NCBI RefSeq assembly: GCF_032854445.1
Contig: NC_088300.1
Coordinates: 7,502,001 to 7,566,000 of the forward strand
DNA: 64,000 bases
DNA from: Liolophura sinensis
Lineage: Eukaryota; Mollusca; Polyplacophora; Chitonida; Chitonidae
Direction of reading: 5' to 3'
The notes under the pieces are model-generated. The model was given only the letters and a program-made list of their open reading frames with translations, made no database searches and was not told the origin of the DNA. The translations under genes and the position numbers were made by a program. Positions 10,601-61,388 of the stretch are shown here, one piece after another (the first letter of the stretch is position 1; each line of letters begins with the position of its first letter).

Positions 10601-13600
10601 CAGGTTTAACTTTAAGACAAGTCTTCAATATTAAACTTAGCCTATAAAAATTGTGCACCAGTATATTAAATATGAACTAAAACTGCTGCTATTATACTTT
10701 GACATTAAAGAACTGAAATGGCCTCTGAGTTTGGCTAAAATTGTAAATATAAAATATGACTTAATACCAATATTAGCCAATACACTTTCAAACAACTGGG
10801 CTGAGGTGGTATAATCTATCGTTGACTTCTGAAATAGACTGTGTGGCATTTACTGAACCTAGTTTAGCCCCAAATCATTTAAACTTCATGATTCCACCAG
10901 CATTTAACAATATCTCTTCAAGACAACACAATCATGAAAAGCTTGTTATATAAAACTTGTATTACCAAAATCAAACAGGACACATTTAATGTTCAGTGCT
11001 ATATTTCAAAATCTTCCCTGACCACTGACCAGCCATGTTGACCATCACATTCCTGCTACTGTGACAGTCTCAGCACACTCCTCCTTGTCTCTCACCTCCT
11101 CTCCATTAGGTAATGTTAGGATGAAGGGCTCACTCCACATGAGGATGCCTGTCGTGTCCCTCTCTGCCCCACCCCTCCACGAGAAACCTTCTAGGGGTGA
11201 ATTGTCATCTCCCAGCCAGTCTGAACCACCCTAAAGAAAAAAAATTTACACATCAGCTACAATCAGCATGTCTTCAATAGTGTGCCAAGCTGTCTGAGTC
11301 ATTTCAGCGTGCAATGAATCTGGAATATTCATAAAGCCACTACACTGCAAAACAACCAACAATAGATATTAATCACCCAGATTTTAGGATTTCCAAATGA
11401 CTGATTTTATTGAATTTTCTGTATATTCCAGTGTTCCTGTTACAGCTAAGTCTTTCTCTTGGAAAGATGAATTACTTAGAAGTACATACAGTTATAGTAT
11501 AGTTACAGTTCAGACTGGTATACAAAAAGTATACAACACAGCAGCATTCCACTGGGTGTAAGGTATGTTCTGGAAAGCTTCTGGCTGATAGTTTTGGGGT
11601 AAGATCAATTCTGTTTCATCACAATGACATAAGTGGCAATAAGTTCCTTGCTTAATATATAAATAGCTTTTGTCAAAAGAAAATTTTATTCTTTCAAAAA
11701 CTAATTGCTGGAAAGACAATAGTAAAACAGAAGACAGTTAATTGAGACACACTAACCTCTGCACTTAGATATCTCAAGAAGAAGTCTAGGAGGAATGATT
11801 TTCCCTTTCGGAAGGCGCCAGCGACTGAGACGACGACAGCTTTCTTGTCCTTGACTCTAGGGTCAAACAGGATGGCCTCGAGTGCGGCCTCGTCCAGTTC
11901 GAATGAGTGATCATCTCCAGTTAGGACTATAGGCACAGGTTCACCCTTCAACCGAGCCCCTGTTGCCGAGACTGCAAACACACAACACTCAATAAAGAAC
12001 ATGCAAGCAACATGGCCTCAGACAATCTTACAGGTATCCTTCCCCATAAAATGCAGTCATGAAATCTGAAGCAAAAATAAAAAAAAAAACAAAAAAAAAA
12101 AAAACAAACAAACAAAAACACACTAAAATTACTACATGAACATGTTGTGTTTTTTACACTGTGAAAAACACATGGATTTCTTGATGCAGTCTTCAATAAT
12201 GAGATCAATGACACTTGCAAAATCTCATCGTGAGGTAAAAGTTTTGATATATTGGAAAAACATCAACAATAATAATATACTACAAATGCCTACCATAACA
12301 TGACAGTGGCTGAAAGGTATCATACCATTCATACAACATTAACTTGTTGACTTACAAGAACAAACAAATTTTATTTATTTATTTATTTGCTTAGTGTTTT
12401 ACAAAGTACTCCTGAACATTTCATTTATAAATGCAACAGTCGCCAGCATTATGATGGGAGGGAACCAAGCGCAGAGCCTGGGAGAAATCCACACCCAAAT
12501 TTAAGGCGCGTATCATGTATAAGGCCATTTCAAGCTGACTCCAAATTCATCATGTTTTTTTTTAATAATTTTTTTTTCTTGTCTCCAAAGTAAATATAAT
12601 GTAAGTCTTTACAATGGACTTTTGGGTCCACATGCAAGTACTGCATCTTCATCTGTATTTAATGTGAAAATGTAACAGCTAGAGCTTGTTTACAAGACTA
12701 ACAAGAATCAATGATGTCAATCATGAATGCGCTTCAGTTTTTCCATATGGCCCAAAAGTCCACCAGAGAACTTCTATGTCTTGTTTGGGTATTTTATTTA
12801 CTGTAAAAAGTGTAAAAAAAAAAAAAAAAAAAATTAAAAAACATATTCTGAATCTGCAGGAAATGGCCTTTGAGATGGCGCATACTTTATCTAAATGCGG
12901 TTTCCTTTCAGAACATGTAGACTTAAATCATCGGCCTTGGCTATGAGAGATTCTCAGAACTTGGTGTTTAAGTTGAACATCATAACAAACACTCTGTGTT
13001 GGTTATGTATAATTTGTCATTGTCTACACACATTGACTTAAGCTGGTCAATGCCATGACACTCAGATTAACATGCAGATACTAAGCATGTACTGGCATAA
13101 AATAATCCTGATCAGGTTTGAAAAATAACTACATTAGCTTTGGTTGCCAGACTACAATGCAATAAGAAACAGAAGTTAGCTTTGAAATATCTTAATGGTT
13201 CAAGACTTCTCAAAAGTCATTCACTATTACGAATCCCACATGACTGAGCAGAATCTATGCACAGTACTGTCCACGCAAGGAACATTTTAAAAATAAGTAC
13301 TGTTTAAGCAAAAATGACACTTGCTTAAGTAAGATGAGTAGCCTCCCTTGATCCTCTTACAAGCTGTTGTCAGAGGTGCCAAGTAGGACATAGCAGATGG
13401 TTACATTCACAATGCATAAATAGCATCCATAGAGAATTTACCCCTTACGTGTAGCTGATATCTATATGCAACATTCACATCATAGGGCATCATAAAGACA
13501 ACGGCTGAAAAGTAACATGCCAAGAAGCCTTTTACTATGTATATCAGATACTTGTAGACTTTGAACTTTTGTATTGATTATACGCTTAAAATTTTATGTT

Positions 13601-25000: not shown

Positions 25001-28000
25001 AAAATGTGATTGGATGATGTCTGGAGAATGGTGGTGGCAGCACTTCGGTGACATTTGCTAGCCCTGCCACAAGAAGACACAGTATACATAGCCTACTCTT
25101 AATGACTCCTTGTGATCAAGTAACTCAAAATTTTTAAGTACAACATAGAATCCCAAGCATACATACATGTACATGTGGTATATACTATCTGAAATGTTCA
25201 GTTTTTCGGGAGTTATTTTGATATTTTTAATTTGCTTATACAATCTACAGGTATAGCTACTGTATACTCTGCCAAAGCATTGACATTTGTGTCCATTAAC
25301 AGGCAGAGCAACTTTAAATGACAGGTGTGGTGTCTCAATAAGTACTGTATGTATCGAGCTCAGGTGTGCTTACGTGCAAAGCACAATATCATATGGCGGA
25401 TGTTCAATCATTGATAAGCTTTGTTTAATTAAACATGGTAAATTAAAAACTACTTTTTGTAGTATGTATAATAGAACATTACAGGTGATATCTCAAAATG
25501 TGGAGATTTTCACCACCCACAGCAAGCTACCCCACCTTACTGGCATGTCCTGTAAAAAATAGGCTGTGCGATGAAACACGGCCTTCCTTTGAGCCCTGCC
25601 AGAAAAATCTTGCGGCTTATTTCCCAAAAGTAGAAAACTCCTTTTGCCCTACATGTACCCTGCTGTACATGTAAGTTGAATATTTTCGAGTACAAACCAT
25701 GTATATAGATTTATATACATGGAGTAAGATATTAACCCAGGAGTCTCTCATCAATGTGGTCGCTGTTAGTTCAAGTGCAGCTCGTGCTGGCTTTCTCTCC
25801 AGTCGTACGTGGGAAGATCTGCCAGCAGCCTACAAATTGTTGTTGGTTTCCTCCGGGCTGTGCCCGGTTTCCTCCCACCATATAAGTGAAATATTCTTGA
25901 GTACGGCGTAAAACACTATTCAGATGAATAGATAAGATATTAACTGTTCTATGGTTTGTACTCGGAAAATGTTCAACTTACCTATGTAGCATTTAGGGTT
26001 TGGCGAAATGGTTTATATGATTATAGTTATTTACTGTACATGTATTTGATGTACTATTTTTGTCTGGTGCAGATAGTTCTGTTGGTCTTTACAAGTGTTT
26101 TGGGGTATTTTTTGTAAGGCAGGATAATATATATATATATTCATGGACATTGTCTCTAAAAATGCACTTTTCAGACAAATTCCAAGGTCACATTGTAAAA
26201 AAATAATGTGATAAATGGAAAAGAGAAAAATTTCTGGAGAGTCCTTTTATCTACAGGCTGGAGTACTTGTCTCAAGTCACGAGTTCATATTAAAAGAGTA
26301 TTAAAACATTCTCTTTTGAGTTTCCAAGTTGAGATTCCATCTCCTTTATACTATAATGACACAAGTATATTTACTGCTGTTCATAATTCACAACTTAGAC
26401 ACTTGTCACCATACAGATGTAGTATTTTATGTGTTACCAATGTATTTTGACCACATCATGTCCAAATATGCTGGCTCACACCTTTTGAAAACAGGAAAGT
26501 ACCTTTACATATTCTTTGTGTATGTATGTGAACATAAGTGAAAATATACTTCTAGGATTATGATGCATAAAGCTTAGTAATACATGTAATACATAGACAC
26601 AAGCTTCATGGCTAGCTTCAGGTTTTCAAGTTGAAGTGTTTGCTGTTACAGCAGTAGTCAGCCTTTGGTTGTGCATGGGTTGATGCATGTATGATGCTGA
26701 CCTATGTAGTTTCACTTTGAATTGTAGCACTCTGTAAGTATCTTATTTATCAGTAATGCAGGTGAATTTTAGTTCTGTGTAACCAGTTGAAATTGAACTT
26801 CAGTAATCCTTGGTAGGAAATACTAGCATAAAAAATAGGTCAAGGTCGTTTGAAATGGGATTTCCCTGGGGCTTATGGTTGTGATTCCGTTATATCTTCT
26901 ATCTGTGCTACACAGCCGCACTAAGGCTACGTCACAATCTATTTTTAACTCTATATTTGTCCCCATTTGATATTTGCACAATGACATAAGCAGTGTGGAG
27001 TATAGGGCTTAGAAGCTGCAAATCCTAGAACGGAGGAGTTTAAATGTTACAATTGTCTGAAGACACTGTGTTACTGATGACTATGTCCAAAGACTTCTGT
27101 AAGTGTTCAACTAAGGCCCAGACATATGGTCAACTTACATATTTACATGTACATGAATTACTCATCAGACATGTACATATTTCATGCATGGCCAACATGT
27201 ACAAGTGTATGCCTGTTGTAATACTTTCTGCCATAGCTGTGATGACCTTATAAAGTTTTAAGAATGTGCTGGCTTGTTCGACATGTATTTTTTGTTTTTA
27301 GGAGAGAGCATATTGAACTAGAAACTCCACATTGTAGAGTTTTGGATTGGATGTCAAATGCACTTAACTATATCATATGTATGTCATTTTGATACATGTA
27401 CATACATTCGTGTTTGATTTGAAGCTAACCTTCAACCACACATACTTCTAAATACAGCATATGATATTTCTGGAATTCCTTATTTAAATTTGCAATTGTT
27501 ATCAAATGGCTGTTCATGGAATAGACATGTAAATGTGATTAATGATTAGTAGTAACTCTGTGGAATGTGTCTGGAAATAATTGTTGGTAATAGGGTTAAA
27601 TGCTGACTGGTAATACAAGTAACACACACCCATAATAATTGATGCCTAAACTCAGGTGAAGGCCACGAAAGCCCAGATTAGGAGGATACTGATGCTGTAT
27701 AAAAAGTGATTACCTTGGTTAGTATATTGTTTAAGTGTGATGCAACATATTTCTGCGCGAGTTAAAAGTACTTATCTATTGTAAGTTGCACATAATAGGC
27801 ATATTCTCAACAATTATTATTTTTGTACTCTTCTTGATCGTAACCCAAAAGGGCATACACATTTAGATGCTGTATTTGTCCATGCCAGAAGGAAAGAACA
27901 AGGCTACATGTAGGGTGTGATATCAATTATACACAGTAAGACGTAGAGAGATGCTGTAGTGAGATAGGTGTATCAGAAATCCTATTAAAGCATATTGACA

Positions 28001-31000: not shown

Positions 31001-32442
31001 CGGTCATCATTTAATAAAATGTTCAATAATTTTGTACAGAAATCTCCTCTAACCATACCGATTCCAAGGCCACAAGAGCTCTGCCCAAAAAGTTCTTCAA
31101 CTCCTTTCACTTGGCATGGGGGCCCCAAACTCCTGACTACATCAGGTCTTCAATGCATCCAAGAAAATTTACCTGTACAGCCATTTTGGTGCTCATAGCA
31201 CTTTGAGCACTGACAGTGTATTTTTCCAGTTCAGTCTATGACTGTCAACGTTTACTGATGCTGTCCAAATAACCAGCAAAATGAAACAATAACGTTAACT
31301 CCATCTGTAGTTGTGTATTAATGCTCAACTATATTTACCTGAGTAATGTGAAACTGAATTTTTGTATTTGCAGGTGGTCATATTGACCGACGCCCTTCCT
31401 CAGAGTCTCCTGTACCAGGATCGGGAAAAGGACGAATCAAGGGGAGGTCATCCAAGGCAGGGTCGCCAGCTCGTTCCTCAGGTGTCCACTGTCCTATTTG
31501 TGCCAAGAGCTTTAGTAACTCCAGTGCTTTAGCAAAACACAAACTTACACACAGTGATGAGAGAAAGTATGTCTGCTCAATATGTTCAAAGGCCTTCAAA
31601 AGACAAGATCACTTGTAAGTTATCATGTATATATGTGTATAATACCCTCTATTCAAATGTTATGTTGCGTTTTTCACTTCTAGAAATAAAGGTGTGAAAA
31701 GTTTATCAAATGTCTCCTATAGCTTAGAATTGCTGTTTATTGTGTGATGAATTAAGGTTGTAGGCATTTATAGCTATCTTTATGTTTGACAAAGTAAGCC
31801 TTTTGGTATGTGATATGAAATAGTTGACCTACTTTAGACTCTCACAGAATCATGTGGGAAGAACCACTGTACCCTGATCTCACTATGTTGATATCACATC
31901 TAATTGTTTGCACGCGTTTAAGTGTCATGTGTAGCTTTATTTCAGTTTAAATATTTTTTTTTATGTCTTATTTTAGAAATGGTCATATGATGACACACAG
32001 GGATAAGAAACCATTTGAGTGTACGATGAAAGGCTGTGAAAAAAGTTACTGCGATGCTCGATCCCTGCGTCGTCACATGGAGAACCACCATAACCAGCAG
32101 AGCCCAGAGCCCCTCCAGTCCACCCAGGCATTACCCTCTCAGCTGGTGGCGGCGGTGGGACAGAGTACGGTTCCTAACCCAGCATCCTTAACAAACAACA
32201 TGGCTGTAAATGCAGGCATGGAGCTGCAGGCAGCGGCAGCAGCAGGGACACTGACAGCTGAGGGCACAACCGCTACTGTGTATGCTGACTCTGGTGGTGG
32301 GGCAGAGGGAGGTACTGGTGGTAGTGGCGGCAGGATTCACTTCACCCCTAGTCACCCGCCCTATAGTCCTAGTCCTGCCAGCACCCCTCACCAAAGCCCA
32401 GGCTATGCCAACACAAAACCCCATTACTTTCAGTTTGAAACT

Positions 32443-32473
<31 letters not shown>

Positions 32474-35400
32474 AAGTCGCGCCTCCCCCACCACCTCCAC
32501 CGCCACCCCCTCCTCCTCCCCCACCACAACCACAGGCTCATTTTCAAACCACTAGTAGTAACCAGGTGTGGCATCAAGAGGGTGGGGTGATATTTGTCAG
32601 CCATGGACCTCCCCATGCTCAAAACTCGCACAGCCCTAGGAGTGGGGAGCAGTCCCCGGGCTACCTCCAGCAGATTAGCCCCATCAGCCCTGCCCCTACC
32701 AGCCCTATGCACCCACCCCAGTCCAGGGCACCGTGGAACCAGCTGGGATACAGCCAGCCTCCCACATCAGCAGACATGATGCTGAAACAGGGGTAAGAGG
32801 CTCCCACTGGCTACCCTACTATGTAAATGTACATGTCCTTAGCATTAGCGTTCATGACAGAAGTGTGGTGTAATAATTGTCAGTATTTGATACTTGTGGA
32901 TTCGTATGAAGTACAGTTGGGAAAATTCATTTCAGTTTTAATGATTATGTTATCCGTAATAATTAAATGTCCTCCATATCAGGTTGTCTATTATTCTGAT
33001 ATCTGTTTTCTTGGCTTATATTGTTATATGGCTGAGAGAGGCTGAAGTTGACTTGTTGCATGATCTTGAAGGCTCACAGTGAAGAAGTACAGTTTTTCAC
33101 TGTTGATAGTTAAAAAGTTACATGTATGAGATGCATGATACTTTCATGAAACATTTACCATGGCTACAGTAGTAGATGGCACCTCCTTGAGTCAAGTTTG
33201 GTTCTTTTTACTTTATGTTAATTTTGTGGAATGGTAATTTTAAATACGTGTAGGTGCACTAGGGATGTATCACTATTGGCTTGCATATTCCTTGGTGGAC
33301 AACAAGTTTGGCCCTAACAGAAAAATCGGTAGTTACAAGCCACTACTGTACTTGTGTACACAAACACATTACAAGTACCAACAGTCTTTGTGATGCAGTC
33401 TCGGGATATAGTTGATAAAAAGAATTGCCCAGTAGGTTAAAGGTTTTTGAATATGTTATTGTAGTGGGTACATAAAGGTTGTTCGTAAATATTGTTATTT
33501 GAACAGGTGTATGATGTAAGCTGAATGTTAAGAATCATCAATATCACTGTCTTCTACTTCTATTTAATTCTGTTTTTAGCATTTGGTTTTATTGTCCTTT
33601 TTATCTGCTTTTACAATTTAATGAACAGTAAATCCAACCTGTCCCTTTTAATGTTATTGTGGGCTGGGCCTTCATTTTGGTTAACATTTCTACTTAACTC
33701 CAGGAATTTGCTGCCCAGCTTCACAGTGAATCATAAGCCGAGAAAACGGCGCAAAAACTCGGACCAAGGCTCCAATGGGTATTTAACCTCTCTCTGCCCA
33801 TGCTGCCTGCTCATTGTTTGACACTTGCCACAGTTGCAGGCATTTTCAGCTTCTGCATAATTCTACCCTTCTTGATATCCATGCTTGCACTTTTGGAGGG
33901 ACAAGTATTGGCATTGGTGTATAGTACATACATGTATGTACACCATGCTATTGGTTGATGATGGTGTCTTGTGTGCTGACACTTTGAACCTGCTTGTCTT
34001 GTTGGCTTACTAAATTTGCCTTGATATGGTTATATTTAAGTTACTGACAACACATTCTGGTTCACTCTTCAACACCATTTATGTTTATATGTACATGTAT
34101 TGCTTGAATATTCAACAAACAGAACTTTGCATGACAACAGAGAAATTTCTTGTTACTCATGCAACATGTACGACTTTCTCCTAGTTTAATCAATTTTCTC
34201 CAGTTCATATTGTTTTCCCCACTTCTTTGCTGGAGAAAAGTGCATTTTGAGAATCTGGCATGCCTTTTTTCTTGAGTCAAACCTAATACACAATTAATGT
34301 ATTAAAATGCACCATATCCATATCTAGTATAGGTGCATGTACAGGTGAGTTTGAATATTGTATTTTACCAGCATGATTGCTTCCATTATCATCGCTCATT
34401 GTAGTTATGAAAGTGAAATCAAGATATGATACATTGGAGCGATATTTTGTCTGCGTATCAGGGAAGTACATGAAATAATATGTTATGTGCATATTTAGCC
34501 CCCGGGTCTTTGCTCCCCCCCGCTTCCCTTAGTAATATTTTATATTTGTGGTCTTGAGAAAGCTACATTTTTAGAAATGTGGGTGAGGGGGGCCTTTTGT
34601 TAATATCTTAGCAGCACCATTGTGGGAATGTGTAGGTTTTCAAGCTGTCTATCCACTTTCAACCAATTTTTAGATGTTTTTGTTGCACTTCAGATATAAT
34701 TTTTTTTCTTCAATCCAATGATATATCCAATGATGTATACTAATGTAGAACCACACCATGGGCTGACTACAGACAGTGCTATACTATCAACAAAGTATCA
34801 TTCTGACAGCTCGAACTGGTAGAGAAGTTTGGACATTTACTACCAAAGCACTAATTAATTCTTCCAGAATACATATACATGCACTTGCTCATTTCATTGG
34901 CTTGAATAAACTAGGGCATCTTTGGAGGTGAAGGCCAGAATAAGTTAATTGCTGTTCATTCTAACAGATATCATAAAAGATACATGTATATATGTCTAAA
35001 CATATATATATTGTGTGTCTTTTTATTATATCTCCTAGAATTAATGCTTATGTTTTTTGTGGAATGGTTTAAATTTTAAGCATGTTGAGTTTTACACACA
35101 TCTGTTGTAGTTCTTAGCACAGCCTTTTGTGTTAAACAAAAAGTTTGTGTTTTCTTAACAATATATGTTCTGTTTTAGTAGTTCATTTGTGTTCAATTTT
35201 GCTGAGAAACTTTTATTTCTGACCTTTTATGTGATCACTTTATTTACAGAAGTCATTTATTCTGTCTACTCTTGGTTAGTTATAATCAAAATGAAATGCA
35301 TATTTGTGATCATGGTAATGATCTTTGGACATACCTTTATAGGTCTTTAGCCTTATTTAAGTTTCTGGTGTTAATCAAATGTGTTCATCAAATCATCTTG

Positions 35401-38400
35401 TCAGCCCACATTTCTAGTAAACATATTGCCAAACTATTGACCAATGGAGCAAAGTATATTTTATGTGACAGCATTGATGACCTTATTTTATTGTTTAAGC
35501 GTTAATGTAATATGCACTCATGGATTGAGCAGTATATTTTCACTGTTGATGATCACACAGGTATATTATGGTTGGAACCTTCCACTGTTGATGATCACAC
35601 AGGTATATTATGGTTGGAACATTCCACTGTTGATGATCACACAGGTATATTATGGTTGGAACATTCCACTGTTGATGATCACACAGGTATATTATGGTTG
35701 GAACATTCCACTGTTGATGATCACACAGGTATATTATGGTTGGAACATTCCACTGTTGATGATCGTACGTGTATGTTATGGTTTAAACATTCTTCTGCTG
35801 ATAACCATATGTGTATATTATGGTTTCAACATTCCACTGTTGATAACCATATGTGTATATTATGGTTTCAATATTCTACTGCTGATAACCATATGTGTAT
35901 ATTATGGTTTCAACATTCCACTGCTATTGAGCATACCTTATAGTTCGAGTGTTACAGTGCTGACGAGCATATCCAATGGATTTCAGCATTGCAACCCTGC
36001 AATAAGCTTTAATTTGAGCTTACCACTGTTGATGAACACATTATGATTTGATCATTTTGGGCTGTGCTTGTTACAGATGAAGTGCACCATAAGCTTTAAT
36101 TTAAGCTTAGCACTGTTGATGACATGTGAAGGTGTGATCTTAGTAGACTCTGTTTGTTACAAGTTAAATGTGCTTTAATTTGAGCATAACACTTTTGATG
36201 ACCATATTATGATTGGAACTTTGTACACTATGCTGATGATTATTGTTACAGATTGTGATTGTTCCATCTATCATGGCTTTTCTTATGGTTTCAGAGACGA
36301 GAACAAGCCTGTCCAGTGCAGCATGTGTAACCGACGATTTAAGAACATACCAGCACTTAATGGTCACATGAGGCTACATGGTGGCTACTTCAAGAAAGTG
36401 CTAAAGGTGAGTTGTCTCCCTTGATGCATCCAGTTTAATGTTTATTCGCTGCAAAGGGTAGTGGTATTTGGAATTTCAAATGTTGTCAGTGTTGAATCTC
36501 TTTAACATCAGTGCTGTGTGTGTTGATTAAAAAATATTACGTAATGAATACATTTAACTTTTTTTGGTATCTAGGTCTTATGCAGACAGTTTAACAAAAT
36601 TGTGGTGTTTTTTCTATTACTCCCTTGGATCAGAAGTAGTTTTGACAACATTTCCAAGTGGGTGCATGTCTAAAGAAAGTGTAAAGGTGTACATGTTCTA
36701 TGGCAATCTGAGCATAGGCCAGAAAAGAGAGAGGTCAAGCTTAGGTCTCTAAGCTGGATGGTACAAAACATTACAGACAGGTGGCTGGGGTTTTAGAGCT
36801 TGTAAATACCCAGGTACTGTTCAGCATAGTCACCTAGAGGATGTATCATTTGACCTGTTATTTTGTATGAACACCAGGACAATGCCAAGGATGAAAAAAA
36901 GAAGGGAAAGAAAGCTGAGTTGTCTTCTCCTCCGCCGGGCCATATTATTCTGTCTAGTAAGATGAGTCAGGACTCCGGCACCTTCAAGCAACCATTCCAA
37001 GCCCCATCAGAGCAGCAAAACCTACAGGTACCCTATCCCATATTTAGCAGCCTAGGGATGCAACTTCACGGTGGAGGAGATGTTTATTAGTTGTGCTTGT
37101 ATAATAAAACTCCTTGAGAGCATTCAGTCTGGCTGGAGATGTTTAGCTCCTAGCCCTCCTGACATAGATGAGCAGAGGTGGGCGAAGCACTTGTAAAGTA
37201 CCATATATCATGTGTTGAAATCCTATTGTGTACAGTGTTCGTTGATACATCATGCACCAGTCTCATGCATTATGACTTAAACTGTTATTAATCTTTGTCT
37301 ACAATTCTACAAAATGTGAAATAAATTTGTAGTCTAGAATCATTAACTGGTTTATCTAGATGTTGATTCTTGACTTGAAAATAAAGTGGATGAATTGAGA
37401 ATTGAATGTATTCTTTATGGAGTTCCCTACATCCCTTAAACCAAATTTTTATCACTGTTTGTAATGTACATTGTTTCAGAGTCCAGTTCAAGGTGGGCCA
37501 TTCGTGTTGCCCACTGGACAGCTGGAGCAGGAGCCTGGGCAGGAGCATACAGGCCAGGAGCAACACTCTCCTCTCACCCCTACCCATCCACCTCAACACC
37601 TGGGCAGCCCCCTCACCCAGCAACAGAACACCCTCCCAGAGCAGTCCAGCCAGCAGCATCATCATAGACATGTTCAGCAGCTTCTCCAGCAGCACATCCA
37701 GATGCAGTCATTGATGCAACAACAACAGCAATTAGAACAACAACAACAGCAACTCCAGCAGCTACAAGAACAGCTCCAGCAGCACTTCCAGCACCAGCAG
37801 AGCCCTGACAGCCCATCATCCCCTCATATTGCCGTGCCAGTGCCCTCACCACCTGTATCCATGAGTCAGGGGGAGTCTTTATCCTCTCGGGCCTGGCATA
37901 CTCCTGATGTGACCATCCATGTCCCCTCCTCACCCAACCTTCCTGTCACACAGGCTGATCCATCTCAGTCCAGGGGCGTCTGGCAGGAGTTCACGCCTCA
38001 CCAAGAAGCCGTGTTCCAACAACAACTCCAAACCATACAGGACATGCAGGACATGCAGAAGCAGCTACAACAACAACAGCAGGTCGAACAACAGCTACAA
38101 CAACAGCAGCACCACCAGCACCATCAAGAGACTGGAGCATCTCAGGTGGTGACAATGGCAGGTGACAGTCCCCAGCAGCCTTACCCTATCCTGCAGCAGC
38201 ACATCATGTTAGGACCTTGTCTACAGCAAGGCTCCGGTGGGGGGGAACAACTCCAATCTCCAGTGGAACAAATGACACTTCAGACATTTTCTGACGTGCT
38301 CCCTCAACAGGTTCATCACGAGCCTCTACCTTCAACGCTTTCTAACAGTATTGACACTTCAGATGGGCTCTCCCAGCCTGTGTTTGTCTCGGCCACTCCC

Positions 38401-41400
38401 ATCACAGTGGGACATAATTTTATTGGGGGTGATCGCCAGCAGGACCTCACAGATGCTCAGTTGCTGACCAGTGTTGTGGCCAGTATCATCTCTGGCCAGC
38501 ACCCCCTGCCCTCAATGGACCAGTCGCAGGGCCAGTTCCATCAGAATGGTGACAGCACGTCTCATGCAGCTGTCTCTGACCACCCAGAGGTCAATCTGGC
38601 TGATGTCAACTTGCATAATGTACATTTACCATCCTCCACTAGTGTGTCATATGAAAGTAGACTGACAGAGAACAGCACAGACCCTATCATGGTGAACAAT
38701 TCTCTGCACCCAGCGACATCGCTAGGTGACCCTCTTATCGTCTCCTCTCAACCTTCATTTGTCACTCATCATCATCATCAGCCGGGCTCAAGTATTAAAA
38801 GTGTTGAAGACAAACTGTTCACCTCCCAGCTGCAATCTAAACCTCCCAGTGAGATATCTCCCTTCACCTTCAGGCCAGTGAACACAGGTGGTAATGAGCA
38901 TGGGACTGGGGACAGTAAGGCAAATGTTGGGCATGGCAATGTTGCTATTAACAGAGACAAGTATTTACCATTGCCTATAGGCAGCACATACACTCAGTCA
39001 GAGAAAGAACTGAAACCTCCAAGTCGAAAGCGACACAAAAGTGAGGGTGTTATAGGGATGGCAGCTAAACGCCCTTCTGCAAGCAACCTAGCCATGCTCC
39101 TGCAGAAGGGGCCTGGGGCATCCTCAGTTAGTAAATCAGTAAACGCACAGTCACCTCACCCAGAAGGGGAGGCCAAACTCACAAAAACAGCTGATGAAAG
39201 AAACAAACTGCTACAGCGATCGAAGAGTGAGGATCATACATTCATGCGACCACGAAGTCGGGTGGATGACCCATACTACAGACCTCGAAGTCGAACTGAA
39301 GACTCTTTGCACCGTAGCAAAACTTATCACCACGAGGACTTCCTGTCTCGCTCAGATGGAGCTGGCATCTTTAGAAATCCAGGCTTGTCATTGAGTCCTA
39401 TAAGAGCCAAGAAAAAGCATCGCCCCGCCCCACTTATCATTCCTCCTCATGTGAACAGTTGTGGCTTTCAAAGTCGCCTTAGGTCTCCACGTCTGTGGGA
39501 TGGGGGTGGAGACGGGAGATTAAAGAGAGGAAGCACTCCGCCCCCGTACACTCCACCCCCAATGCTTAGTCCAGTGCGGAGTGGATCAGGCCTGTTCTGG
39601 ATGATTCATCCGGGATTCCGACCCATGACACCCAAGTCTGCTCCCATAGCACCTCGTCTATCACTCAGCCGGAGAGGTTAGTACACGTATAAATTACCCT
39701 CTCTTCATATTCATCCTTTAACATAATCCAGATAAAACAGAATGCTAGATATACATTTACATCTGTTGACACTCTCCTGACATTTGTGAAATTATTGGGG
39801 TAATTTGATGTATTTTATGGAAAAAGAATAATAATTTCAAGTTATTTTTCAATGAAACTGAAACATGTGGTATGTTTTATTATGCATATACTCTAATGTA
39901 GTTTAGAGCTGATTGACTGTCTGTTCCAGGCTCCTTGGCTACAGGGCCTGTCAAAGCTGATACAATAGAGGAGGAGCCAGAGAATGAGGAGGAGGAAGAA
40001 CCGCCCCCGGAAACAGACATCCAACCGTGAGCTTATGTTTATGAATGATCAACATGATTTGTTATTGTCATGTTTGCTATTCAGGGAACTTTGAAATGGA
40101 ATGAAGTCTAATTAAATTTTCCTACTGACAACAAAATAGGAAAAAGTCTGTCTGTTAGTATTCCATGATATTATTTAATTGAACTGCAAACATTATAATT
40201 GTTGCTGTATGCCACCAATACATCTAGATCATTTCTTTCTTATTGTTCTGACATTCCATTTGCTAGCATATGTATCACAGCTATTTCTTCTTCTTCTGTC
40301 ATATGTTCACCGCTATTTCTTCTTCTTCTGTCATATGTTCACCGCTATTTCCTCTTCTTCTGTAATATGTTCACTGCTATTTCTTCTTCTTCTGTCATAT
40401 GTATCACAGCTATTTCTTCTTCTTCTGTCATATGTTCACCGCTATTTCTTCTTCTTCTGTCATATGTTCACCGCTATTTCCTCTTCTTCTGTCATATGTT
40501 CACTGCTATTTCTTCTTCTTCTGTCATATGTATCACAGCTATTTCTTCTTCTTCTGTCATATGTTCACTGCTATTTCTTCTTCTTCTGTCATATGTTCAC
40601 TGCTATTTCTTCTTCTTCTGTCATATGTTCACCGCTATTTCTTCTTCTTCTGTCATATGTATCACAGCTATTTCTTCTTCTTCTGTCATATGTTCACCGC
40701 TATTTCTTCTTCTTCTCTCATATGTATCACAGCTATTTCTTCTTCTTCTGTCATATGTTCACCGCTATTTCTTCTTCTTCTGTCATATGTATCACAGCTA
40801 TTTCTTCTTCTTCTGTCATATGTTCACCGCTGTTTCTTCTTCTTTTGTCATATGTATCACAGCTATTTCGTCTTCTTCTGTCATATGTTCACCTCTATTT
40901 CTTCTTCTTCTGTCATATGTTCACCACTATTTCTTCTTCTTCTGTCATATGTTCACCGCTATTTCCTCTTCTTCTGTCATATGTTCACTGCTATTTCTTC
41001 TTCTGTCATATGTATCACAGCTATTTTTTCTTCTTCTGTCATATATTCACTGCTATTTCTTCTTCTTCTGTCATATGTTCACCGCTATTTCCTCTTCTTC
41101 TCTCATATGTATCACAGCTATTTTTTCTTCTTCTCTCATATGTTCACTGCTATTTCCTCTTCTTCTGTCATATGTTCACTGCTATTTCTTCTTCTTCTGT
41201 CATATGTATCACAGCTATTTCTTGTTCTTCTGTCATATGTTCACCGCTATTTCTTCTTCTTCTTCTCTCATATGTATCACAGCTATTTCTTCTTCTTCTG
41301 TCATATGTTCACCGCTATTTCTTCTTCTTCTGTCATATGTATCACAGCTATTTCTTCTTCTTCTGTCATATGTTCATCGCTATTTCTTCTTCTTCTGTCA

Positions 41401-44400
41401 TATGTATCACAGCTATTTCTTCTTCTTCTGTCATATGTTCACCGCTATTTCTTCTTCTTCTGTCATATGTTCACCGCTATTTCTTCTTCTTCTCTCATAT
41501 GTATCACAGCTATTTTTTCTTCTTCTGTCATATGTTCACCTCTATTTCTTCTTCTTCTGTCATATGTTCACCGCTATTTCTTCTTCTTCTTCTCTCATAT
41601 GTATCACAGCTATTTCTTCTTCTTCTGTCATATGTTTACCGCTATTTCTTCTTCTTCTGTCATATGTATCACAGCTATTTCTTCTTCTTCTGTCATATGT
41701 TCATCGCTATTTCTTCTTCTTCTGTCATATGTATCACAGCTATTTCTTCCTCTTCTGTCATATGTTCACCGCTATTTCTTCTTCTTCTGTCATATGTTCA
41801 CCGCTATTTCTTCTTCTTCTCTCATATGTATCACAGCTATTTTTTCTTCTTCTGTCATATGTTCACCTCTATTTCTTCTTCTTCTGTCATATGTTCACCG
41901 CTATTTCTTCTTCTTCTGTCATATGTATCACAGCTATTTCTTCTTCTTCTGTCATAATTACTGCTGTCATTCAAGCGAAAACTTCTTGAGCATGGAATTG
42001 AACTCCAGTGAAATAAATAAATCATTTCATTTACCATAACATCTACCATAGCTATTTTTTTCTTTCTTTTCGATGCCATTGACTAAAACATATATCACAA
42101 GCATTTCTTCAGACTTTCTTCACACACATTCTTTACATTGTTTATGGCATCAGTTCCATTTTTTTTTTTTATATAGTGTATTTATGTTATTTTTTTCCTA
42201 TGCATTTCACAGGCATGTCAATATTGGACCACAGTACCAAGCTGATATTCCACCTTTTAATCGTAAGTTATTTACTTAAGATCTTTTTGGAAATTAATTC
42301 AAATGCCAAGCAGGGACAGTAAGTTTTTTTGACTGGACTTTTACTGAAAAAATGTTTAGTAATATTTTAAAACACCATGCATGGCATTTTGACTTTAAAA
42401 CCTAAATATAAATAAATGAATATTTAAAATTATGTATCTGTGTTGATTTGAAATGGTTTATGAATCATTTAGGAATCGATTATCTTGAAAATGCCTTTTT
42501 CATTTATGACTTTAATTTTTTAGTTTCATTTATTTTGTAATATTGAATGTTAATCCAATTATTAAGAAAAAAGAGGAAACAAACGCCACCATCAAAATGT
42601 CAACGATCAGTTTACGAAAACGCTTACGCTTTGTGACCAACAATGTGTCTCTCTCTTGTGACATAGCTAACAAGTCTGCAGCTCTCAAACAAATGGACAA
42701 AGAGGATATGGTCTGGGACCCCAGCATAATGAAAGAGATGTCTGTTACCGATGAGGATGGTAGGTGATCAGTTAGGATGCAAAATTGTTTCTTTTTTCTT
42801 ATGTAATTCATTGTAAAATTGATTGCATGTAAAAGGAAGGCTTTAGAGTTGTCATGATAGTTTTGAAACCCAGGCCTGTACATATAAAACATGGCCAATT
42901 GAGGTTGTTTAACCTGGGCACTGAATTCCTCCAGACATGAACCTGACTGCCACCACACAAGTGAACAGGTCTTGAGCATGACATTGACGCCAATCTGCTA
43001 CATATAAATATATAAATGCGCCAGATCTGAGCCCTTCATAATAACGCGTTGTTTCTTTTGACAGTGCATTGTTACCAGGACTTTGCCTGTTGTGCTGCCA
43101 TTCATGGCAATGGTGCCAATGTGGAATACGCATTACATCTGCTTCATCTGACAAGAGGAAACATCCAGGTAACACTTGTGGTCTTCCAGCTGTCATTGAC
43201 AAGATATATTTCCCATGAAATTCTTAAGTTGTATTTTGGTTTGGGAGAGAAAATGACTTTTAGCTGAAAAAAAAAAAGATTTTTCTTTGTCAGATAATTG
43301 AAATAGATGCAAGAAAAATAAAATGCCATGTTTCATGAGCAGTTTAAGTCCCAACAACATGGTATATTTAATTCTGTGCAAATTAGGTTATTGATATATT
43401 CTGGGATACTGTGGATTGGATAGTTTGCTAAAAGTGTGTCCTTCCTGATGGAAAGAGAAATCTTGTCATTGTAAACATTGTGAGGTCTCTTGTAGGGTGA
43501 GCAAGGCTGTATGGTGAGTAATGCTGTGTGGTGAGCAGGTGACCATGTCTAGTGTTTCCTAATGATTGTTGTTGTAACTTGCAGGAAGCCATGTTAATGC
43601 TCATGAAGGACTCACTGAAGCTTCCAACAGGGCACACCTTATTAACATACCAGTACCAAGGTACGTTTTAATTTGAGAAATACCATAAATGACCTGAACT
43701 CCAGGACTCATTTTTTGTAATTCTGAGAGTTCTATAGAGAGGTGTTATAAGGTTTTTTGGAAGGTAGAGTGGTGGTATCCCTCTGAAAAAGTTTCAGCAC
43801 CAAAAATAATATTTTATGACTTTTATTTACCTCCTTGTTGGGTGCAGTGTTAGTTCAGTTAGAAGAGTAAATAATTCAGTGGATTATAAAGGTGATGGGC
43901 AGAAGAAAGATTATAAGTTTTACTGCTTTGATATATCTTTTCTTTGTCCCTCTTTATTATACAATTACCATGTAAGTTTCAGCTTGGATCTTGTCTACAG
44001 ATTTAAATTAATATGTCTGGGGTTTGTTTGAATTTGCAGAGGCAGATAGTTGGAGCACAGAAGAAATAGAAGCATATTACCAGGCTTTATTGAAGAGTGA
44101 TAAGGACTTCTTCTTGATAGCCAATGAGGTATGGTGTACATGTGTGTGACAAGCCACTTCTGTGAACGGGACTGTAAATGAGTCACAGGCATTGAATTGA
44201 TTACCAGGTGATGAGGTTGAAAGCTGTGAAAGTAACAAAAAAAGTTTATTTCTACATGCAGTAGATTCTAGCTAGTCATTGGTTGAGTGCAGTCACTTGC
44301 AGTGGGGGTAATATCCATACCACACTGCACTTGGTGACCTCTTCAAAAGAAGCTGTCAATCCATTTGCAAGTCACAATAATTTCCAAATCTACACGAAAG

Positions 44401-54443: not shown

Positions 54444-55007
54444 ATTTGTTTTATCCAATACACCAATGAGAGGAGGAAATCATGGTATTTTTTTTTTTGT
54501 CCAATACACCAATGAGAGGAAGAAATCATGGGAGATTGTTTTGTCTAATACACCAGTAAGAGGAAGAAATCATGGGAGATTGTTTTGTCTAATACACCAG
54601 TGAGGGGAAGAACTCATGGGAGATTGTTTTGTCTAATACACCAGTAAGAGGAAGAAATCATGGTAGATTGTTTTGTCTAATACACCAGTAAGAGGAGGAA
54701 ATCATGGTAGATTGTTTTGTCTAATACACCAGTGAGAGGAGGAAATCATGGTGGATTGTTTTGTCTAATGCACCAATGAGAGGAAGAACTCATGGGAGAT
54801 TGTTTTGTCTAATACACCAGTAAGAGGAGGAAATCATGGTAGATTGTTTTGTCTAATACACCAGTGAGAGGAGGAAATCGTGGTTGATTGTTTTGTCTAA
54901 TGCACCAATGAGAGGAAGAAATCATGGGAGATTGTTTTGTCTAATACACCAGTAAGAGGAAGAAATCATGGGAGATTGTTTTGTCTAATACACCAGTGAG
55001 GGGAAGG
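54444..55007. repeat. 44-bp tandem array, about 13 units
   Basis: Units read TTGTTTTGTCTAATACACCA then GTAAGAGGAAGAAATCATGG and GAGA. Alternating variants (GTAAGAGG/GTGAGAGG, AAGAAATC/AGGAAATC, CATGGGAGA/CATGGTAGA) are interspersed, as expected from unequal exchange. It lies between the two convergent genes. Confidence 0.95.
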
Positions 55008-56006: not shown

Positions 56007-56041
56007 TTAGTCTGCATCTTCATCTCTTACCACAGGAACAC
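56007..56041 (-). CDS. DNAL1: DNAL1 exon 10 and stop
   Basis: Encodes [10 protein letters not shown] then TAA at 56009-56007. Acidic end as in the family. A minus-strand AATAAA candidate at 55667-55662 lies inside the neighbouring MITE. Confidence 0.9.
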
Positions 56042-59000
56042 CTGTAACAAAGAGAATAAGACCATCAAATAGCACAATCGAACAGAAGAACAAATTCCTT
56101 ACAGCTTTTCTGGGTTAAGTTGCAGTAAGAACTAAAAGACTGGTTTGGTTGTGAAAAGGGAGATCAACCCTCCTCTCATTAAATAACTACATGAACAACG
56201 TATGTAAATGAATATTTATTTAAGTTCAACTGAACATTTTATTGTACTGAACAAAGGGTTGTCTCCCTTTTTACATCACCTGGAAAAGCCCCTATAGTCT
56301 TTTAAATGTAACCTTCATAAAAGTGATCATATCAGGCACTTGTTAACTTAACTCTAGATCATCAAAACGATACACAAGGAAAAGTTACCATCTAGCTTTT
56401 TCAGTTTACTCAGCCGTCTGCATGCTTCGTCCCGCCATGTGTTGTTAGCCTCTTGTTCCTCATACAATGGGTTGCCTGTATTTCCAGAGAAGTTATGGAT
56501 CATAGGAACAAAAGACCATCACTAGTACACTGTTCACTAGTTAAAGAAAAATTAGGTAATGTGCAGTGTATATATCAACTACAGTAACATGTAATATAAT
56601 AAAAAGGTGCTCTTCCTCCAATAATCTCCAGCTTTTTTGGAGAATAAGCAGAGACGACATTTCAGGAATCATGCAAGTTCAGGCAGGCTTGGATGAGATA
56701 GGGTAGGCAATTTTGCGAACTAACATGGATGAAAGGCATGATAGTACAGTAACTGCTAACAGCGCGTAGGGCCCACAAACCTGGCTATGCAAGATGTATA
56801 GTCTATCTAGCAAATATATCTTACCATTTGCTTGCCCTACTTTGAGAGAGACTACACTCTGTCTCGACAATATCTGCTTGAACTCACAGGACTCCTGAAA
56901 TGCCCACTCAGCAAATGTTACACAGCATTGATTCGCAGTCAGATGTCAGTTCTTCTGAATCATTCCGAGAGACAGATGTTTTTGGCAATAAACTACATGA
57001 ATTTGATGTACAAACACTGCCTTGTTCTTGTCCCCATAGTTATGGTGATATAACCAATGAAATGTACACTTACCTACAAAAAGCAAATCTTCCAAGACAG
57101 GTAAATCTGCCTGTAATAATAATTTATATATTAATCTGATTTGTAATAATATTAAAATTAATACACAGCGCATTGCTTAAGACGGAGCCATTTCTTGTAC
57201 CACACATACAATTTCATATTCTTTGAAACTACTCTCTTGATACTGCAAATGGTCATACAGTCACTGGGCAATGTAATTACAAGGAAATAATTCATTCATT
57301 ATTTTTAGGAATGGAAAGGATTATTTCAGTCAAAACAGTAATCACATTTAGTTTTTGAAAACAACAGGGAAATGAGGCTGATTCCATCTTATCATTAGCA
57401 TATGTTAAACAACATCTATAAGAAACATACATGTATATGTATACCTACTAGTTTCATGAACTCTTCCCAGGCCTTGACAGAGTTGTTTGACATGTACAGG
57501 ACCTGCATAAAGTAAAACTTATAATGACAACATATAACTACTTACAAACAGGCAAAGAATTTTTGATATGTATACCTTGATTTTCTTGTGTACATGTTGA
57601 CCATAACCATATGACAAATCTGGCTTTTAGAAAACGAATTAATGTATCTTGAAAATATAATGACATTTTACAGTTACACAGAAATAAAAACAATAGGTGT
57701 CCATGACAGTAAAATACCATTAATAAGCCTGTTGGAAAACCCACTTTTCTTACATAAAGTTGAGCCTTGTGTTTATTTTCAATGTTTTTTTCTGCCAATT
57801 AAAGCTCATTTGAACCATGTTTTGTTTCACAACTGCCAACAGTACCTTCAGTTTTCTGAGAACATTGATGCCTTTCAGTTTTTCAATGTTGTTGTAGGAG
57901 ATCCACAATTCTTGTAATGTGTCACCAACTGCTTCCTATGAAAGGAAATGTGCATAGAAAACAATGTTTAACTTTAAATATGGCCAGTCTTCCTTTATCA
58001 AAGCAGACTTGTCAGTGATATTCTCACAGATATTTAAAGTATATACAGTTAATGTTTACTTTTTACTGTTTGTACCTAATGATTCTAAAAGTAATTCTGC
58101 TTCCTTATGAAACCATACATTAAATAACATGTGAAAAAATTACATATACCTACCAGACCAGTTAAACTTTTGATGGCATTTCTTCCAGAGACAAAATTGT
58201 GAGATTTTCTGAAAAAGGAAGTATTATTTATATATATGGTTTATACCATGTGTGGGCTTAATTGGCTTTCTGCATATGCCTGAATATACAGTTATACCAG
58301 CCATTACTTGCAAAACTTTGCAAGCTAATAAAACTTCATGGTTCATCTCAGTCTATGAGGAACACTATAATCTGTGTTGACATTTAGGCCCATCAAACAT
58401 GTCAAAATTTGTTCACTGCTTTGCTGCAGTACCACAAACTGGCAGAGCTGCAAGTGCTGTCTAGATCTGAAGGCAGAAAAACTGGTTTAGTAGTATTATT
58501 TTCATTACATCATACAGTAAGATCAGATCAGGCCTTTTAATTTGGTTGATACAAGGGTTGAGTTTTAAAGGGCCTCAGGAGTAATACTGACCTCTGCCTT
58601 CAGAGGTCAGTGTAGTGTTACTAGTCAAATGTAATCATGATGTTCAGATATGAACGGACAGAGCTTCAGTTAATTCTGAAGTCTGATAAATTAAATAAAT
58701 TACAAAACTACATCTTTTTGCATATATTTCTGCAGCAAGACATTCATTTGCTTCCGGGTATAGTATTCATGAAATCCAATGAACTGAAAACTACAGACAA
58801 CTTACCACTAAATACTAAGTTATTAACATACATAAATATGTCCTAGAACAAGCACAAACACCACAACAGTTAAGATAACTGAATCCAGAGAAAACAATCA
58901 GAAATGTTTTTCCAACTTTGCTGAATAAAGATAAATAAAATGGAAGCAAGCACTTACTTAAACCATTCAAATTTGCAATTTTTTCAATTGCATTAGTCGA

Positions 59001-61388
59001 CAAAGACAGTTTTCTGAAATGTAAGAAAATATAAGGGAAAATTTAATGACTCAAAGAATACTTGCAGTGCTGTATTTCATTAATATGCTAGAACAGCACA
59101 CAATTATTAGCTAACTTGACAAACATCTTGATCACTCAAACAGAAAAAAATAATTTGAGCTATGAAGCTTTTTGTACTTGAACAGCTATATCTGAAAATA
59201 TTATCAGTAATACAAAGGCTTCTACTTAAAAAGGCAGCTCTAGAGATGGTTATTAGATATGAATGGATTAATGATCAAGGCTTTTGGTAAATACACTGTG
59301 AACACAATTATATCCCAAATTTTACTTGTATTGTTGATGTTTATATTTTCCAGCATATGCATATTCAAAAGTACTCCAGTTTTTTCTCTGTTGTTCTTTC
59401 ACCCATGACGCTGATAAATTTCAGGCTTTAAAAATATTCTTGGTCATAACATAAACAACCATATTAAAATGTAAGTATGTATAAAGTACAAGCGCATTAA
59501 AGTATGCAGTGCTTATGAAGATGACCATTGCTCAATTATGTGAAACTTACGTGCAGCTGGCAAGAGTTGACAAAGAGGCATCCATCTTCTCTATAGGGGG
59601 ATAACATCCACATAACTTTACTTCAGTAGCTTCAGATGCTTTTTGTCCATTTTTCTCTTCCTGTTAAAGATGTATTAAACCAGAGTAAAAAAAATACTCT
59701 TCACGTATGAGAAGCTTGGACACCACGCTGAACAAATATCCACATTAGACATTGACAGAAATGAAAGACTGAACTAAAGTGTTGGTTTCTCAGATGCCTC
59801 GGATAGAAAGTTACCAGGATTAAGTTCTACACTGGTCCATCCAACTTGTGCAGATGATTTATTGCGTCAGAATATATGTGAGAGTATTGTGTCTCACTGT
59901 TATTGGCTGTCTTAATATAATTTAAAATCAAGTAATGGGGGTAAAAAAAAAAACAGTTTTTATGTTCTATTACATATATATTTCCAAACTTCAGCACTGA
60001 CCGTAACAGATCCAATGATTTTCTTTTATAACTGCATACTTTTTTATAAGGTTATATCTGCAGTATTGCAACATACAGTTCTGACTGGCCACATGGTCAG
60101 TTCATCCATTCACATCATATGAGATTTATTTATTTGACTGGTATGTGTTTTACGCCGTGCTCAAGAATATTTCACTTATACGCCAGCGACCAGCATTACA
60201 GTGAGAGGAAACGGCCAGGAAGAAACCCACAACCATCTGAGGATGCTGGAAGACCTTCACATGTACAGTAGGAGAGGAAGCCAGCATGAGCAGGACTTGA
60301 ACTCACAGCAACCGCATTAGTGGGAAGCTCCTGGGTCATCACATGAGATGTCAGTCACCTAAAGTTATCTCTATGTTCAGCCTGTAATGTAGTCACTCAG
60401 TGTGTATACACTGCTGATTGTTACGTGATGTGTACATGTAGGATTTTTAGTGATACAGTATATTTTTGGGCACATCTAAATTTGAGTACCCATATGTTCT
60501 TCATAACTAAATATTTGCTACAGATACAGCGCTAAACATAATAATGAAAGTAGGAGCACATGCTGTAAAGCGCTCAATAGCATACCAACACCAAGGTCGC
60601 CACAGAAAACAAATATTATACATGTGTAAACATACATACCCACTTTGCCAAAGCTTCTTTAATTGTTGTTGCCTTAGCCTACAAATAAAATACCAGTGCA
60701 TTATTATATATGTTGACAGCAACTGTTGTATTCATTTTAATGTACATATAAATTCTCTTAACCTTCATCTGTACTTTGCATGAACCTGTTGCATACCCAT
60801 GTTTTTGAGTGCTAATTAAGTAATAATTAAATTAATATTTAATCAAGATGCCTGTATAAAGCATTAAGGTGTTTGAAACTAAATACATACCCATAAATAA
60901 AATGATAGTTACTGTGGCATGTGTACGTACATTCTGAACCACTGAAAAATCTAGCGGGGTATGTGCAACACGGTAAAACACCATGCAGGTACACATCTAT
61001 GATGTAAATTTCTAACACAATATTCCTTGACTAGAAAGTTAGGTTATATGAATTATCATATGTCAGCTAGGTCAGAATTACAGACACTTTAGTTTAATTA
61101 CATAACATTCATAGCCATAAATATCAATGCACATGTATCATAACTCTCGTCACGATCCTTTAATGTCAGTCTAGATGGATGTGTTTTATAAGTTTAATCT
61201 TACCTTTATCAAGAACAAATGCGTATTGTATAGGACTATGACAAATTCAGAAATGTGATGAACTCCCGGTAGACCTACTGCCAGTACTGGTACTAAGAAC
61301 ATGAAGAGTAAGAAGCCGAAATGAATTAAGGCGAGAGAAAGATTTTAATTTTAAACACATGGGCAACTCAGAAGTAGCTTGTTACCAT
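56007..61388 (-). CDS. DNAL1: Axonemal dynein light chain 1 (LC1), frame broken in exon 5
   Basis: DNAL1/LC1 is a leucine-rich-repeat protein that binds the outer-arm dynein gamma heavy chain and regulates ciliary beating. Exons: 61388-61386, 60678-60640, 59660-59551, 59013-58958, 58208-58154, 57935-57846, 57502-57449, 57110-57074, 56475-56389, 56041-56007. Translation opens [14 protein letters not shown], includes [71 protein letters not shown] and [18 protein letters not shown], and ends VVRDEDAD. These match human DNAL1 (190 aa) along the full length. As sequenced the total is 566 nt, one short of a multiple of three. Exon 5 loses one base after ILSL and would stop at codon 85; with the base the protein would have 188 aa. 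All splice sites are intact, so an assembly error or a segregating allele is as likely as pseudogenisation. Confidence 0.94.
56389..56475 (-). CDS. DNAL1: DNAL1 exon 9: LRR cap
   Basis: Encodes [20 protein letters not shown] then LSKLKKLDG, the C-terminal cap. Phase 1 at both ends. Confidence 0.95.
57074..57110 (-). CDS. DNAL1: DNAL1 exon 8
   Basis: Encodes [13 protein letters not shown], the last repeat. Phase 0 in, phase 1 out, GTAAGT donor. Confidence 0.94.
57449..57502 (-). CDS. DNAL1: DNAL1 exon 7
   Basis: Eighteen codons, [18 protein letters not shown], matching the LYMSNN-V-W-EF-KL block of the family. Phase 0. Confidence 0.95.
57846..57935 (-). CDS. DNAL1: DNAL1 exon 6: LRR 3-4
   Basis: Thirty codons: [20 protein letters not shown] then [10 protein letters not shown]. 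Phase 0 at both ends. Confidence 0.95.
58154..58208 (-). CDS. DNAL1: DNAL1 exon 5: LRR 2, one-base deletion
   Basis: Starts KNLTILSL in the correct frame, but [11 protein letters not shown] continues in the next frame. A G is missing at plus 58185-58186 (CC where CCC is expected). Literal reading gives LEEMPSKV then a stop. The exon is 55 nt; 56 would fit the phases of both neighbours. Confidence 0.9.
58586..58611. repeat. Perfect 11-bp hairpin in DNAL1 intron
   Basis: ACTGACCTCTG, loop CCTT, then CAGAGGTCAGT. Lies between DNAL1 exons 4 and 5. Short weaker flanking symmetry (AGTAATA / TAGTGTTACT) extends it. Confidence 0.8.
58958..59013 (-). CDS. DNAL1: DNAL1 exon 4: LRR 1
   Basis: Encodes [18 protein letters not shown], the first leucine-rich repeat, nearly identical to human. 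Phase 2 in, phase 1 out. Confidence 0.95.
59551..59660 (-). CDS. DNAL1: DNAL1 exon 3
   Basis: Encodes [16 protein letters not shown], then [18 protein letters not shown]. Leads into the first leucine-rich repeat. Phase 0 in, phase 2 out. Confidence 0.95.
60125..60337 (-). mobile_element. SINE family 1, 5'-truncated, 11-bp TSD
   Basis: Flanks ATCATATGAGA (60114-60124) and ATCACATGAGA (60338-60348) differ at one base. Complement reads from the late tRNA head through the core to an AAATAAAT tail. Lies between DNAL1 exons 2 and 3. Confidence 0.83.
60640..60678 (-). CDS. DNAL1: DNAL1 exon 2
   Basis: Thirteen codons, [13 protein letters not shown], phase 0 at both ends, GTATGT donor. Confidence 0.93.
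61386..61388 (-). CDS. DNAL1: DNAL1 exon 1: start codon only
   Basis: The coding part of exon 1 is just ATG, followed at once by a GTAACA donor. Exon 2 starts [13 protein letters not shown] in phase 0, and human DNAL1 begins [12 protein letters not shown], which supports this start. Confidence 0.8.

Follow-up and report, generated by a model that had tools for sequence, protein, structure and literature searches.

A one-base deficit in exon 5 interrupts an otherwise intact DNAL1 gene and probably reflects an assembly error

The window (the whole stretch of 64,000 bases that was analysed, with zero N) is recognisable as animal DNA from the many introns of its genes. Its minus strand carries at 56007-61388 a ten-exon gene for DNAL1, the outer-arm dynein light chain 1 (LC1), and the fifth exon of this gene is one base short. 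The cause is most likely an assembly error or an ordinary broken allele rather than a new biological mechanism, and the finding is an ordinary one under either. Our preferred reading, to which we assign a probability of about 0.6 (a judgement rather than a computed figure, as are the weights behind our wording for the three rival explanations), is that a consensus or assembly error dropped one base of exon 5 and that the gene itself is normal: the chromosome would carry a full-length exon 5, the base would be absent from the assembly consensus only, and the living animal would probably make an ordinary full-length DNAL1 protein. The chief value of the finding is as a caution, since a single-base assembly slip can make a conserved cilia gene seem lost.

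All nine modelled DNAL1 introns are bounded by GT and AG, in agreement with the original prediction that the splice sites are intact. The coding part of exon 1 is too short for the homology check and was placed because the homologues begin with MAKATT. The features of the gene are as follows.

61386..61388, minus strand: putative coding part of DNAL1 exon 1 (ATG only), followed by the donor GTAACA
60640..60678, minus strand: DNAL1 exon 2, by homology
59551..59660, minus strand: DNAL1 exon 3, by homology
58958..59013, minus strand: DNAL1 exon 4, 56 nt
58154..58208, minus strand: DNAL1 exon 5, 55 nt, one base under the required phase
58185..58186, minus strand: frame break in exon 5 (CC on the plus strand, GG on the minus strand), at the conserved glycine of LSLGRN
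58162..58164, minus strand: premature stop codon TAA, the 85th codon when the exons are read literally (position worked out by hand from those of the exons)
57846..57935, minus strand: DNAL1 exon 6, by homology, open in its own frame
57449..57502, minus strand: DNAL1 exon 7, by homology
57074..57110, minus strand: DNAL1 exon 8, by homology
56389..56475, minus strand: DNAL1 exon 9, by homology
56007..56041, minus strand: DNAL1 exon 10, including the regular stop codon

On the minus strand, exon 5 is preceded by TACTTCCTTTTTCAG and followed by GTAGGTATA. The same tandem donor, GTAGGT, ends both exon 5 (58148-58153) and exon 7 (57443-57448) on that strand.

To establish the identity of the product, the conceptual protein was compared with an X at the break position, and homologues were ranked within the PDB alone, where 20 distinct sequences reached an E of 1e-10 or better. 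The best solved homologue is the DNAL1 chain 8j07_m3, which we take to be human; it aligns without gaps over residues 1-186 (E 1.3e-84), with 135 of 185 positions identical when the X is excluded, 62 of 77 upstream of the break and 73 of 108 downstream. Judged by sequence comparison, this match is far beyond chance, and the predicted DNAL1 identity is borne out. The top nine PDB chains, at E 1.3e-84 to 9.1e-41, all bear the name of outer-arm dynein or of axonemal or dynein light chain 1, while Rab-family, PPP1R7, internalin and guanylate-kinase leucine-rich repeat chains are weaker at E 9e-30 or worse, so that among PDB chains this protein is closer over its full length to axonemal light chain 1 than to other leucine-rich repeat proteins. 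Pfam likewise reports LRR_4 (E 1e-13) and LRR_9 (E 5.1e-08), both over the curated cut-off. The protein shares with 8j07_m3 and with 5yxm, given as Chlamydomonas LC1 in PMC10886578, its leucine-rich repeats, the MAKATTIK start and the LSL.RN residues around the break; it differs from them in that exon 5 is one base short here and the literal reading is 84 residues long. The DNA is thus a DNAL1 gene, and its literal product is not full LC1.

The deficit follows from the reading phases. Because exon 5 starts in phase 1 and homology places exon 6 in phase 0, the length of exon 5 must be 2 modulo 3, and 55 nt is one short; both the exon bounds and the phase arithmetic of the original prediction hold. 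The joined coding sequence comes to 566 nt, which is not divisible by three, and the spliced exons contain no continuous reading frame: as had been foreseen, literal translation halts at codon 85, with five exon junctions downstream of the premature stop. The prediction had also set KNLTILSL and the conserved half of exon 5 that follows it in different frames, on either side of a CC that should read CCC. The two conserved halves do fall in different frames, the sequence does contain this run of two bases where three are expected, and the aligned solved chains read LSLGRN uninterrupted across the break, which falls on a glycine found in both distinct LC1 sequences compared. No other disabling change is present in the modelled coding sequence, and exons 6-10 are open in their own frame past the break. 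We considered a decayed pseudogene and rejected it, since the single disabling change, the nine GT-AG introns and the open downstream exons all speak against one; the copy retains its introns and is therefore not a processed pseudogene.

An error in the assembly is favoured because the modelled gene has no other disabling change, and because LC1 is described as crucial and its knockdown in planarians severely reduces motility. In PMC10886578, outer-arm preassembly and the stability of cilia are described as depending crucially on LC1, which is also said to bind the microtubule-binding domain of an outer-arm heavy chain. Loss appears milder in some reports, which counts against an error: according to a review (PMC10002865), planarian LC1 knockdown reduces motility severely without a visible outer-arm defect, and it is uncertain what part DNAL1 plays in human ciliary dyskinesia. 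The view that an outer-arm subunit is not expected to be lost is accordingly reasonable, but these planarian and human reports make it less than absolute. A literature search combining DNAL1, mollusc and cilia gave no match. The nine GT-AG introns, the open exons 6-10 and the failure of every tested splice form to rescue the protein (see below) also argue for an error; against it stand a clean neighbouring gene, a site that is no long homopolymer, and the fact that the weakest donor and the weakest acceptor among 19 modelled introns both belong to DNAL1.

The neighbouring gene, which encodes atlastin (window 5125-11948, minus strand), served as a control for the error rate. Eleven exons were modelled, with boundaries set by eye and the first and last coding parts excluded, and together they form 1467 nt in a single frame with no stop and with GT-AG at all ten modelled introns; dense errors are therefore not seen. 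Three long open reading frames on the forward strand (18160, 31951 and 37465) are also open and were excluded from the estimate because their frame has no homologue check. One indel in the 2033 nt of DNAL1 and atlastin corresponds to 4.9e-4 per base (95% interval 1.2e-5 to 2.7e-3), an estimate biased upward because DNAL1 was picked for its indel. According to PMC8081667, frameshifting short indels are the commonest errors in CLR long-read contigs before polishing, at Q30-35. If every error is treated as an indel, the probability of at least one error in 566 nt at these qualities is 0.43-0.16, and that of none in the 1467 nt of atlastin is 0.23-0.63. Both an error in DNAL1 and a clean atlastin are thus unsurprising at Q30-35, and the control favours neither reading. 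At Q50, in contrast, the probability of an error in the DNAL1 coding sequence falls to 0.0056 (0.6% or less at Q50 or better), and if the assembly is of that quality, a real allele is the more plausible explanation.

The break resembles the frameshift indels of long-read assemblies (PMC8081667) in being a one-base indel in an otherwise intact coding exon, and departs from them in lying in a two-base run rather than a long homopolymer and in having a neighbour, atlastin, with no frame error. Under a simple geometric model, runs of exactly three G number 265 in the window against 275.9 expected, and runs of exactly three C number 245 against 284.0, 14% low. C runs of four (61 against 53.4) and of five (16 against 10.0) are above expectation, which argues against consistent undercalling of homopolymers, and with A runs reaching 20 bases and T runs 12, gross homopolymer compression is not seen. 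The causes listed by the original prediction (a homopolymer error, a null allele or a copy replaced elsewhere) are a fair set, but the homopolymer label is weak for a two-base run without consistent undercalling.

The main rival, compatible with everything seen, is a real null allele, probably heterozygous, that was captured in the haploid consensus, with LC1 being supplied by the other allele. Heterozygous loss-of-function alleles are numerous in outbred wild animals, and a heterozygous DNAL1 null would presumably be tolerable in any case. The break is single and clean, its site is not obviously error-prone, and the adjacent atlastin gene shows no frame error; all of this fits a true allele. 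Since five junctions lie downstream of the codon-85 stop in exon 5, the mRNA should undergo nonsense-mediated decay. Constraint on DNAL1 would, on the other hand, lower the expected frequency of such nulls, and we regard this explanation as possible but distinctly less probable than an assembly error. A literature search on loss-of-function variants in oyster returned nothing relevant.

A fixed loss at this locus, with another DNAL1 copy having taken over or the function being no longer needed, is unlikely. The persistence of visible outer arms after planarian LC1 knockdown (PMC10002865) is in its favour, but the model contains no second disabling change, the downstream exons are open, and the retained introns leave no processed pseudogene here. 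Nor did tblastn find a second copy within the 64,000-base window, where the DNAL1 exons account for nine rows at E of 0.33 or below and the rest lie at E of at least 1.4. Were the deletion real and fixed, it would offer a natural test of how far cilia manage without LC1.

The last explanation is a working bypass, in which exon 4 is skipped to give a 169-residue protein about one repeat shorter, or the ribosome slips back one base. Splice sites were scored with a matrix from 19 introns (nine of DNAL1 and ten of atlastin), trained on the introns that it scores, so the values are rough. Exon 5 has good sites of its own (acceptor 11.5 bits, donor 10.3 bits). The lowest scores of all 19 introns do fall within DNAL1, at the donor of exon 6 (3.4 bits) and the acceptor of exon 9 (6.9 bits), but neither site adjoins exon 5. 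The original prediction had allowed for a splice form that restores the frame. Among 170 alternative GT donors and AG acceptors within about 300 nt of exons 2-5, five restore the frame of exon 6. The strongest of them, a donor for exon 4 that lies four bases downstream, reaches 1.5 bits, whereas the 19 modelled donors span 3.4-12.5, and it would turn LKNLTILSL into LSKKSHNFVS. The tandem donor GTAGGT of exon 5 was also considered as a rescue and rejected: it would change the exon length in the direction required, but the codon-85 stop precedes it, and it is not among the five. Within intron 4, no pseudo-exon of 20-249 nt has sites at least as strong as the weakest modelled ones.

Exon 4 is the sole frame-reopening skip among the eight single-exon skips, which is the point in favour of a bypass, but in the 169-residue product KSHNFVS replaces 26 residues, so that most of one repeat is lost and its leucine ladder is gone. 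When one to three of exons 2-9 are skipped (92 sets), 12 sets reopen the frame into exon 6: 11 include exon 4 but not exon 5, and the twelfth removes exons 3-5 together. In two of these sets (exons 4 and 8; exons 4, 8 and 9) the frame is lost again further on. The test was scored on exon 6 residues, and sets that skip exon 6 are thus uncountable. No tested splice form yields a normal DNAL1 protein, as each reopening site or skip alters or removes part of a repeat. As to ribosomal slippage, inspection by eye showed no classic slippery heptamer, and the RNA of exon 5, folded by itself, has no unusual structure and is less stable than shuffled versions (z +1.44, with 191 of 200 shuffles folding at least as well). 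A bypass of either kind is improbable, and we put very little weight indeed on its more specific form, in which a true deletion is common or fixed in this animal and a 169-residue LC1 made by skipping exon 4 has been selected as compensation.

The window holds several other features. A probable C2H2 zinc-finger gene lies on the plus strand at 31490-39681, with finger matches at about 31490-31603 and 36317-36379 (positions by hand) and long open frames at 31951-32796 and 37465-39681. When the three forward frames of 12100-40002 were searched with Pfam, C2H2 fingers and related zinc-binding models appeared in one frame and no match in the other two, and the long forward open reading frames 18160, 31951 and 37465 matched no Pfam family. 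Three tandem arrays were recorded, with units of 32 bp (40267-41956, 52 copies), 44 bp (54446-55006, 12.7 copies) and 42 bp (35541-35923, 9.1 copies). The first has more than 500 open codons in each of the three forward frames, probably a mechanical effect of the repeat and no evidence of a gene.

Rfam at the gathering threshold and ARAGORN reported nothing in the window, and a search for relatives among viral contigs gave 11 pattern matches and no relative. A 21-base motif recurs with 0-3 mismatches at 9800-9820, 25879-25899 and 60162-60182 (chance mean 0.00), the last inside DNAL1 intron 2; it presumably resembles a SINE of marine invertebrates, and the repeat fragment had no match in the literature searched. 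From 62718 onward, the plus strand carries an ATG-started open stretch, MAARTSGRTGYLLKKFVSLSVNSSKQRYHSTYQ, that ends at a donor-like CAG|GTACAG and is possibly the first exon of a gene for a mitochondrial protein, head to head with DNAL1.
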